Shown here piece after piece: positions 42,047-48,221 of a stretch of DNA of 64,000 nucleotides. The DNA is taken from positions 1 to 64,000 of the forward strand of contig NZ_PUGF01000015.1 in the NCBI RefSeq assembly GCF_002976435.1, given 5' to 3'. The position numbers and the translations under genes are program-made. This DNA comes from Solimicrobium silvestre (GTDB lineage Bacteria > Pseudomonadota > Gammaproteobacteria > Burkholderiales > Burkholderiaceae_D). How positions within the stretch are numbered: the stretch's first letter is position 1; every line of letters begins with the position of its first letter. Under the pieces are notes generated by a model. The model was not told the DNA's origin. It made no database searches and saw nothing but the letters and a program-made list of their open reading frames with translations.

Positions 42047-43362
42047 AAAATACACGCAATCTCACCAAGCTTTTTTTTGCCGCAGTTGTCTTACTTGGCT
42101 GCATGAATACATCTTGGGCGCAGTCGACGGCAATGGGTTGCGGCACAGTAACCTCAACCGGTACCGGTAACACAACGCCATTAGTTATTGACGGTTTTCC
42201 TTGCGCCGCTGGCGGTACTGCCGGTGCAGTGAATGCAGCGATGGAACCGTATGTCAGTGTCAAAATTTGCGCGCCTGGTAGCACAACCAATTGCCAAATC
42301 ATCGACCATGTAATTGTTGATACCGGTTCAACCGGTTTGCGGATTGCAGCGACGGCCTTGTCGTCCAAACTGCAACCTGGCGTCTCCGGCGGTTTGCCTT
42401 TAGTTGCCGGATCTAGTTCAGGCACAAAACTGACTGAGTGCGAAACCTATGTGGATTCTTACGTGTATGGCCCAGTTGTGAATGCCGATGTGTATATTGC
42501 CGGTGAACTGGTGAAAAGCACCACGATGCAAGTGTTTGGCAGTTCCAGCTATACCGTCCCTAAAACCTGCAGCAGCCAAGGTGGTACACAGACTGACACA
42601 ACGCAAAGCTTCGGTGGTAATGGTTTGATCGGTGTGAGTTTTGATTTGGCTGACAACTATCCGCTGTATTTCAATTGTAAAACTGCCACCGGCAGTAGCT
42701 GTTCTGCGAACACGGCTTATGCAGGTATGCCAAGTACGGTCAGCCAGTTTGCTACCGACAACAACGGCGTGGTATTGAGTCTTCCAGCGGTCGGTGCCAG
42801 CGGTTCTACAACGGCCGTGGTCGGTACGTTGATGTTTGGTGTGAGTACCCAAAGCAATAATGTTCCGGCAGCAGCGACTTTACCGATCGTGAATTTGGGC
42901 GGTAATACATCGCTTAGCGGTACTTTCAACACAGAGGTCGGTGGTACTTGGTATTCGGCTTATATTGATAGCGGCACTGATGTAATTTATTTCAATGACA
43001 CGGCTAACAAGAACCTGAAAGCATGCCCGACCTCAGGTAATTTTGATGGCTGGTATTGCCCGACAACCGTACAAAGTGTGCCGTTTAGTATGGCAAATAC
43101 CGGTTCAACTACAGCCAAAGGTACGTTGACATACTCTGTCGCGAATGCCAGCGTTATTGCTGGTAGTAAAGTCATTGCTTATAACAATGTGGCAGGATCA
43201 GACGGCAGCTCAGCAACGACTAACTCGTCGGTTGGCTTTGGTCTGTCGACATTTTTAGGTCACAACATGTATATCCTGTTTAACGGAATGACTGCACCAG
43301 GCACCGGCTTGGGCGGCAATTCAAGCACGACTGTTACAGGCCCGATCAACGGTATCGATTAA
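42043..43362 (+). CDS. DUF3443 secreted protein with pepsin-like aspartyl protease motifs
   Basis: Protein of 439 residues with a signal peptide ending near NTSWAQ. The N-terminal half carries VIVDTGSTGLRI (Asp93) and the C-terminal half AYIDSGTDVIYF (Asp309). Two such Asp-Thr/Ser-Gly motifs, about 216 residues apart, are the layout of pepsin-family aspartic proteases. GNGLIGVSF (193-201) resembles the pepsin core element following the flap, and GFGLSTFLGHNMYILF near the end resembles its closing strand. Formally it is a DUF3443 protein; the protease reading is mine. Cys are frequent, suggesting disulfides. The last 28 codons and terminator are duplicated about 2 kb downstream. Confidence 0.8.
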   Translation: MKNTRNLTKLFFAAVVLLGCMNTSWAQSTAMGCGTVTSTGTGNTTPLVIDGFPCAAGGTAGAVNAAMEPYVSVKICAPGSTTNCQIIDHVIVDTGSTGLRIAATALSSKLQPGVSGGLPLVAGSSSGTKLTECETYVDSYVYGPVVNADVYIAGELVKSTTMQVFGSSSYTVPKTCSSQGGTQTDTTQSFGGNGLIGVSFDLADNYPLYFNCKTATGSSCSANTAYAGMPSTVSQFATDNNGVVLSLPAVGASGSTTAVVGTLMFGVSTQSNNVPAAATLPIVNLGGNTSLSGTFNTEVGGTWYSAYIDSGTDVIYFNDTANKNLKACPTSGNFDGWYCPTTVQSVPFSMANTGSTTAKGTLTYSVANASVIAGSKVIAYNNVAGSDGSSATTNSSVGFGLSTFLGHNMYILFNGMTAPGTGLGGNSSTTVTGPINGID

Positions 43363-43436
43363 TTTCGATTTGCCGTATTTCAACCCAAAGCCAGCGCAGT
43401 GCACTTGCTGGTTTTGGGGGAGTTTCATCAAGATAC
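43277..43436 (+). repeat. Direct repeat, copy 1 (3' end of the DUF3443 gene)
   Basis: Matches 45238-45396, with the first ~120 bp identical and only short differences after. It covers the last 28 codons, the stop codon, and a terminator-like hairpin ccagc...gctgg-tttt (43391-43415). Confidence 0.95.
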
Positions 43437-43502
43437 GAGCAAAAGGGGGGGGGGGCAGGTCAAGCATTGTAATATTTATAATGTTTGTGTTATCTTCCTG
43501 TA

Positions 43503-44347
43503 ATGGCTAGACCACTCCGATTAGAATTTGCAGGCGCTCTGTATCACGTGACTTCACGTGGGGATCGGCGTGAGGATATCTTTTGGGATGATGCAGATAG
43601 GGAGGAGTGGCTAGCAGTGTTGGCAATGGCGTGTAATCGGTTTAATTGGGTGGTGCATTCCTATTGCCACATGACGAATCATTATCATTTGTTGATCGAA
43701 ACTGTCGAAGGCAATTTATCTGCTGGTATGCGTCAGTTGAATGGCGTTTATACACAAAAATTTAACCGCCATCATCAACAAGTAGGACATTTATTTCAAG
43801 GTCGGAATAAGGCAATATTGGTACAAAAAGAAGCGCATCTATTAGAGCTATCGCGCTATGTTGTCTTGAATCCAGTGCGGGCTTGTATGGTAGAAACGCC
43901 AGAAGAATGGCCTTGGAGTAGCTATGTTGCTTGCGTGAGTGATGAATTCGCACCACCTTGGTTGGACACGGATTGGCTGCTGACTCAATTTGGAACGCAA
44001 CGCAAACGGGCATGTCGGGCATTTCAACGGTTTGTGCTGCAAGGCAAAGGGTTAGCGTCGCCGTTGCTAGCGACCCGGCATCAATTGTTGTTGGGTGACG
44101 ATGATTTTATAGCGCAGCATCAAACCGATATAAAACAAGAAAATTTAAGAGAGATGTCGACCGCACATCGCCGAACGCTGGCATTAACACTAAACGAATA
44201 CCAAAAAAATACACAAGTAGAAATGAATCCATAGCAAGAGCTTACAAGTCGGGCGCTTATACGATGGCACAAATAGCGGATTATTTTGGAGTGCATTACA
44301 TGAAGGTGAGCCGAGCATTGCGAGCATTTGAGGATGGGAAGTTTTGA
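43503..44347 (+). pseudogene. REP-associated tyrosine transposase (RAYT), C-terminal frameshift
   Basis: Y1/IS200-like single-strand transposase. The reading frame 43503-44234 carries the hallmarks LYHVTSRGDRREDIF, the HUH-type HxH context (HMTNHYHLLIET) and the candidate catalytic Tyr in GVYTQKFNRHH. It stops at TAG 44232-44234. Directly after, another frame continues as IARAYKSGAYTMAQIADYFGVHYMKVSRALRAFEDGKF to 44347, which is the C-terminal helix-turn-helix these proteins have. A one-base change near 44228 therefore splits the gene. The flanks carry ggggcaggtc (43452-43461) and, inverted, gacctgacccc (about 44363-44373), possible element ends. Confidence 0.8.
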
Positions 44348-44692: not shown

Positions 44693-45244
44693 ATGAACAA
44701 GATTAGTCTTCTATTAATTGCTATAACCTTAGGCATTAACTACCACAGCACTCAGGCTCAAACCAGCCCAGACGCATTGCTAGATCTATCGAAAGATATC
44801 TCAATTGAACCCGGCGAAATCCCCGGGTTTTTTTCCAGCCCACCTGGCGTCAATATGGTAAAAAATGCCGTCAAAAATCGCGACGGATCCAAAACGATTA
44901 AAGCAGGTCAGCAGGTACCAGAGGCCAATGATCTAAATCGAAAAGTATGTGAAAGTATGGGAATGAAAGATATTACCAATGAGAATGATTTTACATTGGG
45001 GGCTGGCGCAGCCTACGGCGGAGTTTGCTTCAGCACAGAGCCTCCTCGCAACCGATCCACCAGAGTGCAAGCTATTCCAGGTAAGGGGACTGGGCGCGTA
45101 TTTATACCTATTCCAGAAAACGATCTAAATAAACCACAAGCACCTATGCCATATTCTACCAGGGCACCTATGCAAATAATTCCATATGCGACCACAGGAT
45201 CATCAACATTTAATCAAATGTATTATGCACATTCTCTTGTTTAA
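44693..45244 (+). CDS. Secreted orphan protein, 183 residues
   Basis: I do not recognise the family. It has a clear AAGGAG site and a signal peptide (KISLLLIAITLGINYHSTQAQ). The mature part is Pro-, Gly- and Asn-rich and holds two Cys (CESMGMKD and GGVCFSTEP), which could form one disulfide. Its last codons (SLV and stop) run into the second copy of the DUF3443 3' end, so the original C-terminus may have been replaced at the junction. It lies between the two direct repeats, together with the RAYT remnant, and was probably brought in or trapped by that event. Confidence 0.65.
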   Translation: MNKISLLLIAITLGINYHSTQAQTSPDALLDLSKDISIEPGEIPGFFSSPPGVNMVKNAVKNRDGSKTIKAGQQVPEANDLNRKVCESMGMKDITNENDFTLGAGAAYGGVCFSTEPPRNRSTRVQAIPGKGTGRVFIPIPENDLNKPQAPMPYSTRAPMQIIPYATTGSSTFNQMYYAHSLV

Positions 45245-45396
45245 CGGAATGACTGCACCAGGCACCGGCTTGGGCGGCAATTCAAGCACGACTGTTACAG
45301 GCCCGATCAACGGTATCGATTAATTTCGATTTGCCGTATTTCAACCCAAAGCCAGCGCAGAGTACGTGCTGGTTTTGGGGAGTTTTATCAAGATAC
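45238..45396 (+). repeat. Direct repeat, copy 2 (duplicated 3' end of the DUF3443 gene)
   Basis: A second copy of 43277-43436, offset by 1961 bp. It contains the coding tail out of context, the stop codon, and the hairpin ccagc...gctgg-tttt (45352-45376). Differences are limited to a few bases around 45361-45366 and one G. Confidence 0.95.
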
Positions 45397-45435
45397 TAAA
45401 TGATGTATCAATCCAACTATAAGTGAACCTGGGTT

Positions 45436-45753
45436 TTAACCGGCATCACTATTGGTATGAGCAGTGTGACCGTTGTCAGCCTTCAGTTCATCCAGTGTCT
45501 TATAAGCGTCGGTGATTTTTTCCTCAATGAATTCGAGCCGTTCCGTCGCATGACAAAACCCTGCCCGGAATAATATGGGTGTAATACGTTTATTGGAAAA
45601 ATCTGTCAGAGCAAGATGATCGAGCACTTCAAAAATGGCCGAAAGATCGCTGACGATGTCACGCGCCTGGGTATAGGCGTCAATCGTGTCGACGGCGAGG
45701 TGGGTAATAAGTGGTGGGTGTTGTTGCGTGTGTATCTGATCGGTGCTGGTCAT
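45436..45753 (-). CDS. Small orphan protein behind a structured leader
   Basis: 105 residues starting MTSTDQIHTQQHPPL. ATG 45753 is chosen because GGAAGGAG lies just upstream; an in-frame GTG at 45786 would include that site. The sequence is soluble and helical (AYTQARDIVSDLSAIFEVLDHLAL, then RAGFCHATERLEFIEEKITDAYKTLDELKA) and ends in a polar tail. Size and pattern resemble small accessory proteins I associate with Pseudomonas (DUF3077/DUF6124-like), but I cannot confirm membership. Codon choice is more GC-rich than its neighbours, suggesting transfer. The leader upstream has competing hairpins. Confidence 0.6.
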   Translation of the reverse strand: MTSTDQIHTQQHPPLITHLAVDTIDAYTQARDIVSDLSAIFEVLDHLALTDFSNKRITPILFRAGFCHATERLEFIEEKITDAYKTLDELKADNGHTAHTNSDAG

Positions 45754-45780
45754 GGTGCGCTCCTTCCAGTTCGGTTTGAA

Positions 45781-45863
45781 CGCCACCCGCTATTAAACGG
45801 GTGGGCGGCAAATAGCGGGTTGAGAGACTGGCACTTACTATCAAATCCAGCAGCCCGAAGGCT
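45781..45863 (-). promoter_or_regulatory. Structured leader (GATAGTAAGT type), left copy
   Basis: Read on the minus strand: a hairpin agcc-ttcg-ggct (45852-45863), then gatagtaagt (45833-45842), ctctcaa (45820-45826), and three segments P, Q and R. R (45781-45794) can pair with P acccgctatt (45811-45820) over 10 bp, or with Q cccacccg (within 45798-45809) over 7 bp, but not both. The ribosome-binding site of the small gene follows directly. Mutually exclusive pairing before a start codon is typical of cis-acting RNA switches. Confidence 0.55.
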
Positions 45864-45878
45864 CCTGCTACCACCGCC

Positions 45879-47745
45879 GTGTGTCAAGAACGCGAAAGCC
45901 GAAGTACTGGCTGAAGCGATGCTTTATTGAAGATGAGGGCCGACCCCTCGTGATCGGCGTGCAGGCGCAGGTCACAAACCACCTCAAGCTGCGAGGGTAA
46001 AGAGCCCTGGTGGTGAGCGTTGAGGCTAAAAGGCGGAGTTAACTCCGTCAGGTAGGAATCGAAGAGACGAACGCAAGTGAACCATTGTTGAAGCGTCGTA
46101 AAAGCATAGAGAAGTCGTCGAAATCGTGGAGTGGTGGTGTCTGCGGGATAAGCTCAAGGGAAACCTGATTACTGCTTGAGCGGCGACCGGCGTAGAGATG
46201 GCGTGAATTCGATTCAGGCTTCGATAAGGAACTTGAGAACCTGTCGTGCCGATGCCAAGGGAGACTTTCAAGTGGGTAGCCCCCACGAGGAACAGAGTAC
46301 CGAAGCGGCGCACAGGGGCAGAAGTGCTCGTAGTAGGGATGAAGGCGCTGTAATGGCGCTGGACCAAAGGGGCACTGTCGTTCAGCCTGATTCAGGCGAA
46401 CAACTTATAAGAGGATGATTCGCATGAAACAGGTAAAGCCATTTGTGATTTCCAAACGGGAAGTCTGGCAAGCGTACAAACAAGTCAAAGCCAATCGCGG
46501 CGCGGCAGGCGTGGACGGCGAGACGATCGACCAGTTTGAACAGGATCTGAGTAAGAACCTGTACCGGCTGTGGAATCGACTTTCGTCTGGCAGTTACCTA
46601 CCGCGTCCGGTACGTCGGGTGGAGATTCCGAAGAGCGATGGCAAGACGCGACCGTTAGGCATTCCCACGGTAGCCGATCGCATCGCGCAAATGGTGGTCA
46701 AGAACATCTTGGAGCCGCAGTTGGAGCCGATATTTCATCGCAACTCCTACGGCTATCGACCCAACCGTTCGGCTCATGAGGCCGTTGGCTGTGTCCGGCA
46801 GCGATGCCGAAACATAGACTGGGTGGTGGACTTGGACATCAAAGGATTCTTCGACAATATCGACCATGAGCTATTGATGAGGGCGGTACGTAAGCACACC
46901 GACTGTCGCTGGGTGTTGTTGTACATCGAAAGATGGCTGACAGCGCCAGTGCAAATGCCGGATGGCTCATTGGTGACCAACACGGGAAAAGGCACGCCGC
47001 AAGGCGGAGTCATCAGCCCGTTGCTGGCCAACCTGTTTCTGCATTACGCTTTCGATCGGTGGATGGATAAACACTTTCCAGATCTACCGTTTGCACGGTA
47101 TGCAGATGATGTCATCTGTCATTGCTTCAGCAAGACGCAAGCCAACATGCTGCGGCGGGCGGTACAGAAGCGGCTGGCCGAGTGCAAGCTGGAACTGCAT
47201 CCGGACAAGACCAAGATCGTGTACTGCAAGGACGAAGCACGACGAGGTCGGCATCCGGTCTACAAATTCGATTTCCTCGGTTTCGAGTTTCGGCCCCGTT
47301 GGGTTCGTAACCGTCAACGAGGAACGATATTTGCCCGGTTCACGCCGGCAGTCAGTCCGAAAGCATGTAAAACCATGCGGCAGACGATCCGAAGTTGGCG
47401 GCTGCATCTGCAGACGGGATCCAGTCTGGATGAAGTGGTCCAACGAATACGCCCGATTCTCAACGGGTGGATTCAGTACTACGGGCGCTTCAACCGGGGC
47501 TTGCTCATCAACGCACTAGCGACGATCAATCTGTATCTGGTGCGGTGGGCAATGCGGAAATACAAACGATTGCGGTATAGCTATGCCAAGGGGTGGCAAT
47601 GGATGATGCGGCTGTGTGCCCGTCAGCCTGATCTACTTCCGATATGGCTGCCGAGTCAGGGCTGAGCGACAAGAGCCGGATGAATCGAGAGGTTCACGTC
47701 CGGTTCTGTGAGAGCCTGAGGGGGAGGCTCCCTTGGGCGACTCGA
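45879..47745 (+). mobile_element. Group II intron
   Basis: A self-splicing retroelement of about 1.87 kb. The 5' end is a candidate GTGTGTCAAG at 45879; the 3' end is placed near 47745 and could be off by a few bases. The region 45879-46423 has the GC-rich, heavily folded look of domains I-III and no credible gene. The reverse transcriptase is in domain IV. Domain V, a 34-nt hairpin, is at 47673-47706 (gagcc...ggttc with the agaggttc inner loop). Domain VI, with stem gagcct/aggctc at 47712-47730, follows. It is inserted next to the hairpin of a structured leader. Confidence 0.88.
46424..47665 (+). CDS. ltrA: Group II intron reverse transcriptase/maturase
   Basis: Splices and mobilises its host intron. 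ATG 46424 is preferred (413 residues) because GAGG is correctly spaced; ATG 46415 abuts it. The reverse transcriptase fingers-palm shows RPLGIPTVADRIAQ, NSYGYRPNRSAHEAV, VDLDIKGFFDNIDHELLM, GTPQGGVISPLLANL and the catalytic YADD (RYADDVICH). The maturase X domain follows (ILNGWIQYYGRFN). The protein ends at WLPSQG with no HNH endonuclease domain, so it belongs to an endonuclease-less class that usually inserts by using replication forks. It appears intact. Confidence 0.95.
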   Translation: MKQVKPFVISKREVWQAYKQVKANRGAAGVDGETIDQFEQDLSKNLYRLWNRLSSGSYLPRPVRRVEIPKSDGKTRPLGIPTVADRIAQMVVKNILEPQLEPIFHRNSYGYRPNRSAHEAVGCVRQRCRNIDWVVDLDIKGFFDNIDHELLMRAVRKHTDCRWVLLYIERWLTAPVQMPDGSLVTNTGKGTPQGGVISPLLANLFLHYAFDRWMDKHFPDLPFARYADDVICHCFSKTQANMLRRAVQKRLAECKLELHPDKTKIVYCKDEARRGRHPVYKFDFLGFEFRPRWVRNRQRGTIFARFTPAVSPKACKTMRQTIRSWRLHLQTGSSLDEVVQRIRPILNGWIQYYGRFNRGLLINALATINLYLVRWAMRKYKRLRYSYAKGWQWMMRLCARQPDLLPIWLPSQG

Positions 47746-47775
47746 TCAATGAAGAGACGTGATAGTACACGCACG

Positions 47776-47797
47776 TAAAAAAACGGCTTCACGCCGT
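47776..47797 (-). terminator. Minus-strand terminator-like hairpin
   Basis: On the minus strand, acggc-gtgaa-gccgt is followed by a run of Ts. On the plus strand the same hairpin is the first stem of the right-hand GATAGTAAGT leader. Confidence 0.5.
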
Positions 47798-47870
47798 TCA
47801 TGCGGATAGTAAGTAGAGCAGGCTCTCAAACCTGCTTCCCCTTTTTCTCAGGGAAGCCTGAAGTATCAGG
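47783..47870 (+). promoter_or_regulatory. Structured leader (GATAGTAAGT type), right copy
   Basis: Plus-strand counterpart of the element at 45781-45863: hairpin acggc-ttcac-gccgt (47783-47797), gatagtaagt (47805-47814), and agcagg-ctctcaaa-cctgct (47817-47836). Hairpins gcttccc/gggaagc (47834-47857) and cctga-agta-tcagg follow. No gene of reasonable length follows it. The rest of the 47746-48221 gap holds only the motif listed at 48045. Confidence 0.5.
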
Positions 47871-48044
47871 TAATGCGGTGTATAGAGTCAAGCATTTTTG
47901 ATAATTAAAAAACAAACTCGGTCATACGTTTTCAGCCAGTAATTTGATTGCGGTCAGTGATCGGTTTAATGCGTTGCGCTGTATTATTTAATTAAATTTT
48001 TAAATGCCGTCATTGGTTATTTGGGGAATTGGTTACGGCGAACC

Positions 48045-48065
48045 TATGTGCGTCACCGTACAGAG
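48045..48065 (+). promoter_or_regulatory. Conserved-looking motif upstream of the YXWGXW gene
   Basis: tatgtgcgtcaccgtacaga at 48045-48064. I recall near-identical motifs (GCGTCANCGTACAG) in front of osmotic or general stress genes in Burkholderiales. It may be an extracytoplasmic or stress promoter element; this is a recollection, not a verified match. Confidence 0.35.
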
Positions 48066-48221
48066 TTTATTGTGCATCGGTGTAACATGAGTTCAACATA
48101 AGCGATTAGCCAATTGCTTGGTATTCAGCTAAGAAATTACCCACTCTATCATTCGATAGGTATGCAGATTAACAAATCAAAAAACCGTGTTGTCGCATTC
48201 TGCGGCTTGAAAGGATCTACC

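Follow-up and report, generated by a model that had tools for sequence, protein, structure and literature searches.

On sequence grounds, the leader of a 105-residue orphan gene of Solimicrobium silvestre is a known kind of RNA-responsive leader and no unknown riboswitch, and it is a variant of that kind: multi-copy, apparently chromosomal and without a detectable arm against the Shine–Dalgarno (SD) sequence. We consider it probable that the leader represents a multi-copy form of the phage IsrK/SeqA–C4/CI regulatory RNA, controlled by RNA pairing and split at this locus by a group II intron. The locus lies in a 64 000 nt stretch of contig NZ_PUGF01000015.1 (the window), where a first-pass annotation had proposed, for positions 45781–45863 of the minus strand, a translational riboswitch or protein-responsive leader of no recognized class with two mutually exclusive hairpins as its key feature. 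The idea of a modular regulatory leader before an orphan gene is borne out by the architecture that intact paralogues share. The class can be named, as Rfam C4 and IsrK fit, and this class, together with matched codes between its two halves, points to RNA as the partner and not to a metabolite or a protein.

Features of the split leader and their pairings

At the Rfam gathering cut-offs, a scan of the window (Table 1) returned neither C4 nor isrK. At permissive thresholds the 3′ half is named as C4 antisense RNA (RF01695; 34.2 bits against a gathering cut-off of 45, with E values of 4.8e-4 for 2.8 kb and 2.1e-4 for the genome) and the 5′ half as isrK (RF01394 at 47777–47856; 33.2 bits, E = 9e-5, below the cut-off of 50) and c4-a1b1 (below its cut-off). 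The genome holds ten C4 matches, six of them above the cut-off (47.8 to 55.7 bits) and the other four at 34.2–44.8. Among ten further loci (seven from relatives and three paralogues), C4 exceeded its cut-off in all ten, isrK in two (relatives L121 and L146, with 54.8 and 51.1 bits) and c4-a1b1 in none; the paralogues L002, L005 and L008 failed the isrK cut-off with 32.3–44.8 bits. The three-stem fold, the UUCG-type loop and the two code segments of C4 are all present and, as in IsrK, a predicted short RNA bounded by a promoter and an intrinsic terminator lies upstream of the C4-like segment, an arrangement kept in nine copies. C4 motifs are described from Proteobacteria and phages (PMC2864571) and an earlier prediction of C4 in Burkholderiales is cited by PMC5320573.

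Two other candidates were set aside. Riboswitch families were absent both from the window at the gathering cut-off and from 45400–48200 with thresholds relaxed to E = 10; recognition of transposon ends or single-stranded DNA, suggested by a nearby RAYT-like gene, seemed the poorer fit to the conserved promoter-like site, the terminator and the copy-specific complementarity of the 5′ half. This RAYT-like Y1 transposase gene (43485–44234) and a 183-residue ORF are bracketed by a 146 nt direct repeat of 97% identity (43274–43419 and 45235–45380), which comprises the end of a 439-residue gene and its downstream region.

The pairings of the first-pass annotation are real. The minus-strand segments AATAGCGGGT and ACCCGCTATT are perfectly complementary over 10 bp, with one such pair in the window and none in 100 shuffles; the alternative 7 bp hairpin (CCACCCG/CGGGTGG) was confirmed on the same strand, the paired segment stops 15 nt before AAGGAG, and the TTCG hairpin, gatagtaagt and ctctcaa are all in place. 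All four pairs of the UUCG hairpin are altered on both sides somewhere in an alignment of 98 sequences, and the leader segment 45754–45878 folds better than its shuffles (z = −3.45; one of 200 as good). The two rival hairpins did not hold up as the conserved feature: with the segments used, the 10 bp pairing has an energy of −8.3 kcal/mol or lower in six of the ten copies in the genome, and its weakness in the other four (−5.5 to −6.6) and in a Glaciimonas relative (−4.3) means that it does not define the family. Its upstream strand also pairs farther upstream, in the C4 closing stem, a state that the annotation had not listed and whose pairs covary over the 98 sequences. Moreover, neither state covers the SD sequence. 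A cis-acting switch, in which the choice between the 10 bp pairing and the 7 bp hairpin governs ribosome access for a ligand or protein, has in its favour that both pairings exist and that the longer one greatly exceeds chance expectation in the window and is strong in those six copies, but against these observations we regard it as very improbable.

The informative feature proved to be the inverted gatagtaagt pair. The motif occurs exactly twice in the window, at 45833–45842 (minus strand) and 47805–47814 (plus strand), and two occurrences were found in 0 of 100 shuffles. Its second site belongs to what had been taken as a right-hand copy of the element; this part is indeed related, but it is no second leader and forms, beyond the intron, the 5′ half of this one. 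The span originally named correspondingly lies within the 3′ half and is not a complete element.

The intron is identified by its catalytic domains (RF01999 at 45935–46053 and RF00029 at 47671–47746), by an intron-encoded reverse transcriptase with RVT_1 and GIIM as its only Pfam domains and by clean exon junctions. Its boundaries were set by comparison with intact paralogues and this intron has no other match in the genome. The insertion point follows the reverse complement of the UUCG hairpin of C4 at a distance of 15 nt. Being antisense to the leader, the intron cannot splice out of the leader RNA. At this locus the 5′ RNA is complete with its promoter-like site and terminator, the C4–gene half retains its fold, and V1 and V′ still match perfectly over 10 bp. 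The consensus scan gave two promoter-like sites against a shuffle mean of 2.1, which is no excess, and none on the strand of the C4–gene half in the stretch from the 5′ half to the gene; the promoter stretch is well conserved across nine copies in the genome. The terminator scan gave five terminator-like sites against 2.5 in shuffles, and an intrinsic terminator was found in nine copies and in Glaciimonas. The C4–gene half, now 1.9 kb farther from its promoter, is probably poorly expressed, and the locus would be expected to make short RNA and little protein. The 5′ RNA starts with GGCUUC, complementary to GAAGCC in the 3′ arm of the terminator; this possible antiterminator looks weaker by eye in other copies. 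We found no case of C4 with a group II intron in the literature, and its absence from print is not claimed.

Table 1. Features of the leader locus in the window.
Feature	Position	Strand	Basis or remark
σ70-like promoter, TTGACT-18-GATACT (spacer of 17 nt with TGATAC, one base earlier, as the second box)	47862–47891	−	Consensus scan
5′ half, IsrK/SeqA-like RNA (hairpin 1, hairpin 2, V1, terminator)	47774–47858	−	RF01394 isrK match
Hairpin 2, AGCAGG-UUUGAGAG-CCUGCU	47817–47836	−	Loop is code A, complementary to A′
V1, ACTTACTATC	47805–47814	−	Complementary to V′
Intrinsic terminator, stem-loop and T run	47781–47799	−	Terminator scan
Group II intron, 1868 bp	45879–47746	+	Reverse orientation to leader, at 5′ edge of C4 domain
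Intron-encoded reverse transcriptase/maturase, 416 residues	46415–47665	+	RVT_1, E = 7.6e-43; GIIM, E = 4.4e-16
C4 antisense RNA domain, three-way junction	45801–45884	−	RF01695; match extends 6 nt into intron
UUCG tetraloop hairpin, AGCC-UUCG-GGCU	45852–45863	−	C4 domain
V′, GATAGTAAGT	45833–45842	−	Loop region, second C4 hairpin
A′, CTCTCAA	45820–45826	−	C4 junction strand
10 bp alternative pairing of the first-pass annotation	45785–45820	−	45785–45794 with 45811–45820
3′ hairpin (7 bp state of the first-pass annotation)	45783–45804	−	Code A again here in many relatives
Shine–Dalgarno sequence, AAGGAG	45760–45765	−	Before orphan gene
Orphan gene, 105 residues, ATG start	45436–45753	−	ORF behind leader

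Paralogues and copy-specific codes

A search of the genome with the 3′ part of the leader gave 11 matches, including the window and one gene-only match, and a search with the 5′ half gave nine, itself included. Eight intact paralogues share the order promoter-like site, hairpin 1, hairpin 2, V1, terminator, three-way-junction domain with V′ and A′, and gene. One copy (L007) lacks the 5′ half only and another (L011, G000:C1:441246–441548) lacks the whole leader, its similarity to the 105-residue gene starting at the ATG; some of the genes therefore live without a leader. In a MAFFT alignment of the nine full elements, with the intron removed from that of the window, the leader is well conserved except for the islands V1 and V2 (V′) and the hairpin-2 loop with its partner A′. 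Identity between copies is 48% in V2 against 84% elsewhere and 35% in V1 against 77% in the remaining columns.

Pairing between these codes was tested in ten elements (nine from S. silvestre and one from Glaciimonas) using duplex energies and 20 000 permutations. V1 and V′ paired at −11.8 kcal/mol with their own partners against −4.2 with others, and the hairpin-2 loop (A) and A′ at −8.6 against −5.4, with no permutation as good in either case; the own partner came first (ties counted) in eight of ten rows for V and nine of ten for the loop. The exceptions are C3_208, for whose V1 the V′ of C3_142 (−14.0) is a better partner than the own V′ (−10.9); C18, whose V1 is marginally better with V′ of C3_181; and C34, in which the V pair is weak (−7.4) and the A loop mismatched (−4.3). 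V1 of the window also pairs well with V′ of C3_208 and of C3_142 (−11.4 each), so insulation between copies is incomplete. Copy-specific complementarity of the two predicted C4 code segments, V′ and A′, to segments of the 5′ RNA is shown at the level of sequence, V1–V′ and A–A′ corresponding to the complementarity between C4 and its upstream target a1/b1.

The gene has 11 copies in the genome, that of the window included, and directly follows the C4 domain, without a small coupling ORF. Its protein looks to be under constraint (median dN/dS of 0.29 for 45 pairs among ten copies). The protein has no Pfam match at E = 0.001, and its best E values in NCBIfam and PHROGs (0.04 and 0.06) are not close to significance. 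Apart from the S. silvestre genome itself, protein relatives were found neither in 98 relatives nor in plasmids or phages, and peptide patterns gave none in genome contigs and viral contigs; two weak extra matches in the 392 family genomes (S. silvestre included) lie inside long frames of other genes and were judged to be chance. The AlphaFold model is a helical hairpin (mean pLDDT 64.8) whose fold matches no PDB entry at an E value of 0.001 or lower, and profile comparison with three protein families downstream of relatives' leaders gave probabilities under 2%. No signal for a C4 target was found inside the 105-residue ORFs of the genome.

The 20 ORFs scanned beside the ten other copies include a short-chain dehydrogenase, phosphodiesterase, cupin, porin, glucokinase, GGDEF/EAL protein, sulfotransferase and AAA/SMC protein, as well as toxin–antitoxin-type neighbours, namely RelE with an MqsA-like antitoxin at the C15 copy and an HTH protein with an IrrE-like peptidase at the copy on the contig numbered C4. 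Four of the 20 had no match and none had a phage domain, for which reason the copies look chromosomal, and they may still be of mobile origin. No P4 replication gene was seen beside these copies. One unmatched ORF of 95 residues beside C3_142 (L117:5659–5946) resembles a primase fragment by eye, without a Pfam match, and is a possible satellite or phage trace. The lack of phage domains among these neighbours, the intron-split copy, the two truncated copies and the missing SD arm would suit a relic, in which a phage leader has spread through the genome together with the orphan gene and no longer regulates anything. Codes that differ between copies and still match within them, together with the apparent constraint on the genes, argue against such a relic, which we hold to be highly doubtful.

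Relatives in the family and the Shine–Dalgarno contact

A DNA pattern derived from the leader matched 66 stretches in named genomes, of which one, in Glaciimonas immobilis (L082), is a true relative by its flanks, with the same leader and different codes, promoter region and genes. A covariance model (R1) built from the 3′ half of the leader matched 70 of 392 family genomes (S. silvestre included) in 17 of 44 genera, with at least 125 matches in 69 genomes outside S. silvestre, counting the best eight per genome; it scores 132.2 bits on the window at 45754–45880, the window sequence being itself part of the model. Recurrence before small genes, which the first-pass annotation had named as support for its proposal, was found, and so were compensatory base changes. 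Over 98 sequences (nine from S. silvestre and 89 of 109 relatives), in an alignment that was fitted to the model and leans towards it, 96.7% of the cells in the C4 stems are paired against 88.5% when shuffled, and 23 of 30 pairs are changed on both sides against 10.5 (none of 500 shuffles as good). With RF01695, four genomes picked as relatives with at least eight R1 matches each (G057, G119, G138 and G314) gave 26, 9, 23 and 24 C4 matches and 14 control genomes gave none. G057, G138 and G314 contain 23 to 27 C4-like domains each, several closely paired (e.g. G057:C1:4406866 and 4407179).

From the 125 listed relative loci 109 were fetched, one of which (L120) is the Glaciimonas locus again. 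All but L154 and L176 could be parsed (107) and all but L169 and L226 of these have an ATG start codon (105); L159, L160, L192, L195, L207 and L210, in which the wrong segment was parsed, were kept among the 105. In the relatives each code is present at a third place, which for A is the hairpin behind the C4 domain and for V the SD site, in accord with the a2/b2 contact of C4 over the SD of the first ORF. With permutations that ignore kinship (82 of the 105 V′ are distinct), own energies were lower than permuted ones for V′–SD (−11.68 versus −7.19), V′–5′ half (−11.89 versus −9.20), A′–5′ half (−7.84 versus −6.13) and A′–3′ hairpin (−7.30 versus −5.01; n = 105 throughout), and none of 5000 permutations reached the mean in any of these. 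Row by row, the own SD was best or tied for V′ in 26 of 105 and in the top tenth in 65, the own 5′ half was best or tied in ten and in the top tenth in 60, and, ranked from the side of the SD, the own V′ was among the best 10% in 73. Within G057 alone (27 matches, 26 parsed, 25 distinct V′), V′ paired at −11.21 versus −8.88 with the 5′ half (n = 26) and at −10.70 versus −5.94 with the SD (n = 20, no ATG being found in six), with 0 of 5000 permutations as good in both cases; the own target was best or tied in seven of 26 rows and eight of 20 rows, respectively.

In S. silvestre the corresponding a2/b2-like contact was not found: V′ and SD pair at −5.13 versus −5.37 when permuted, with 79% of permutations as good (n = 10). 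For A′ and the 3′ hairpin 30% of permutations were as good, in what is a weak test given ten copies and little A′ variation; the letters of the 3′ hairpin (e.g. GTTTAATAG) also misfit A′. Glaciimonas has the strongest V′–SD energy in that comparison (−8.0), and its 3′ hairpin GTTTGAGAT stands opposite ATCTCAA. Blocking V′/A′ in a nested fold, which is blind to pseudoknots and was not used as support, changed SD openness by 0.01 or less in eight of 11 rows (S. silvestre copies and Glaciimonas), raised it by 0.39 in C3_181 and lowered it by 0.14 in C3_208 and 0.06 in C3_142; among relatives it rose by more than 0.2 in 19 of 102. Classical C4 control of translation might nevertheless operate through an altered contact, the CCAGU arm of the V′ hairpin binding ACUGG beside the SD until freed by the 5′ RNA. 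CCAGT is present in ten of ten copies and ACTGG beside the SD in seven of ten, the relatives use V′–SD complementarity, and IsrK activates translation in trans according to PMC4825925. The contact amounts to only 5 bp, however, C7_118, C34 and L007 lack ACTGG beside the SD, and there is no copy-specific V′–SD signal in S. silvestre, so that we judge translational control of this kind unlikely.

Toprim, KilA-N and Bro-N proteins are the usual products of genes controlled by P4 and C4 elements. Seven proteins of relatives were scanned and four have a Pfam domain (Toprim, KilA-N, Bro-N and a primase zinc ribbon), the Toprim, KilA-N and Bro-N genes lying in operons of three relatives. A second ORF starts with a 4 nt overlap in 50 of the 105 relatives, which suits the translational coupling described for IsrK. 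A recurrent family of small proteins shares an F-S-W-L motif, by which 33 ORFs were found (e.g. at L142, L156 and L163), and is often encoded by the second ORF behind the leader; comparison of one member with Pfam and PHROGs gave no match.

Proposed mechanism and significance

In the reading that we prefer, pairing between the short RNA and C4 would set terminator read-through. Most transcripts would end at the terminator as an IsrK-like RNA of roughly 85 nt, whereas read-through transcripts would carry the C4 domain, possibly cut out as a C4 RNA (compare RNase P in P1/P7), and the pairing partner of C4 would be the 5′ segment of a nascent or a short transcript. Where C4 matches the SD too, as in relatives, the short RNA should therefore switch translation on by capturing C4. 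The S. silvestre family appears to keep the 5′-RNA/C4 arm only and, since an SD arm is undetectable there, control would most likely lie at the terminator: C4 on the nascent 5′ segment would favour termination in the manner of P4, and the short 5′ RNA would titrate C4.

The 5′-RNA/antisense arm is one of the termination arms of P4. As with the P4 CI RNA and seqA/seqC, the antisense RNA lies within the leader and is complementary to an upstream segment (PMC4825925); unlike P4, the S. silvestre copies show the upstream (seqA-like) arm only and have no P4 replication gene beside them. With the C4 of P1/P7 the leader shares the three-stem fold with a UUCG-type tetraloop, variable code segments, the position in the leader of its own operon and the upstream target segment; it differs in the score of the window copy below the Rfam cut-off, the lack of an a2/b2-like SD match, the orphan gene without a recognized antirepressor domain and the presence of about ten copies in one genome. 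P1/P7 C4 is processed by RNase P to an RNA of roughly 77 nt (PMC5320573). IsrK of Gifsy-1 has the same predicted order of promoter, short RNA to an intrinsic terminator and C4-like segment, but here the small coupling ORF between the C4 domain and the gene is absent, the window copy and three paralogues fall below the isrK cut-off, and Gifsy-1 IsrK is described with other helices than our two-arm scheme (PMC4825925). According to the same source, the short RNA acts in trans in Salmonella to activate its own read-through mRNA, which is otherwise inactive, and an RNA segment of the read-through transcript that is complementary to IsrK (STnc1160) is processed out. Multi-copy C4 is not new in itself, as Acinetobacter baumannii is described to have many C4-like RNAs, whose a′ segment varies and which bear signatures of RNase P-like processing (PMC5320573). 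The Group 1 sRNAs of that species resemble the present family in number per genome and in the variable a′ segment, whereas most of the present copies belong to a complete leader that includes a matched 5′ RNA and precedes a gene.

What is unusual is the presence of about ten such predicted switches in one genome, the majority of which have a base-pairing code of their own. We put forward tentatively, as a conjecture that may well fail, that some bacteria of this family co-opted phage C4/IsrK immunity RNAs as largely orthogonal private attenuators (8 to 27 per genome in five genomes counted), mostly with individual codes and each before its own small protein gene, and that the S. silvestre lineage dropped the anti-SD arm, leaving a pure chromosomal sRNA–C4 termination switch in which the codes would act as identity tags that limit cross-talk, as in phage heteroimmunity. 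Near-identical leaders that differ in two short matched codes constitute a natural experiment in RNA orthogonality within one cell, and the paralogues make testable both the minimum code length that insulates antisense switches and the role of a C4 RNA that lacks the classical target at the ribosome site. The results also indicate a large set of C4-led small genes whose function is mostly unassigned where scanned, C4 domains numbering as many as 26 or 27 in one genome.
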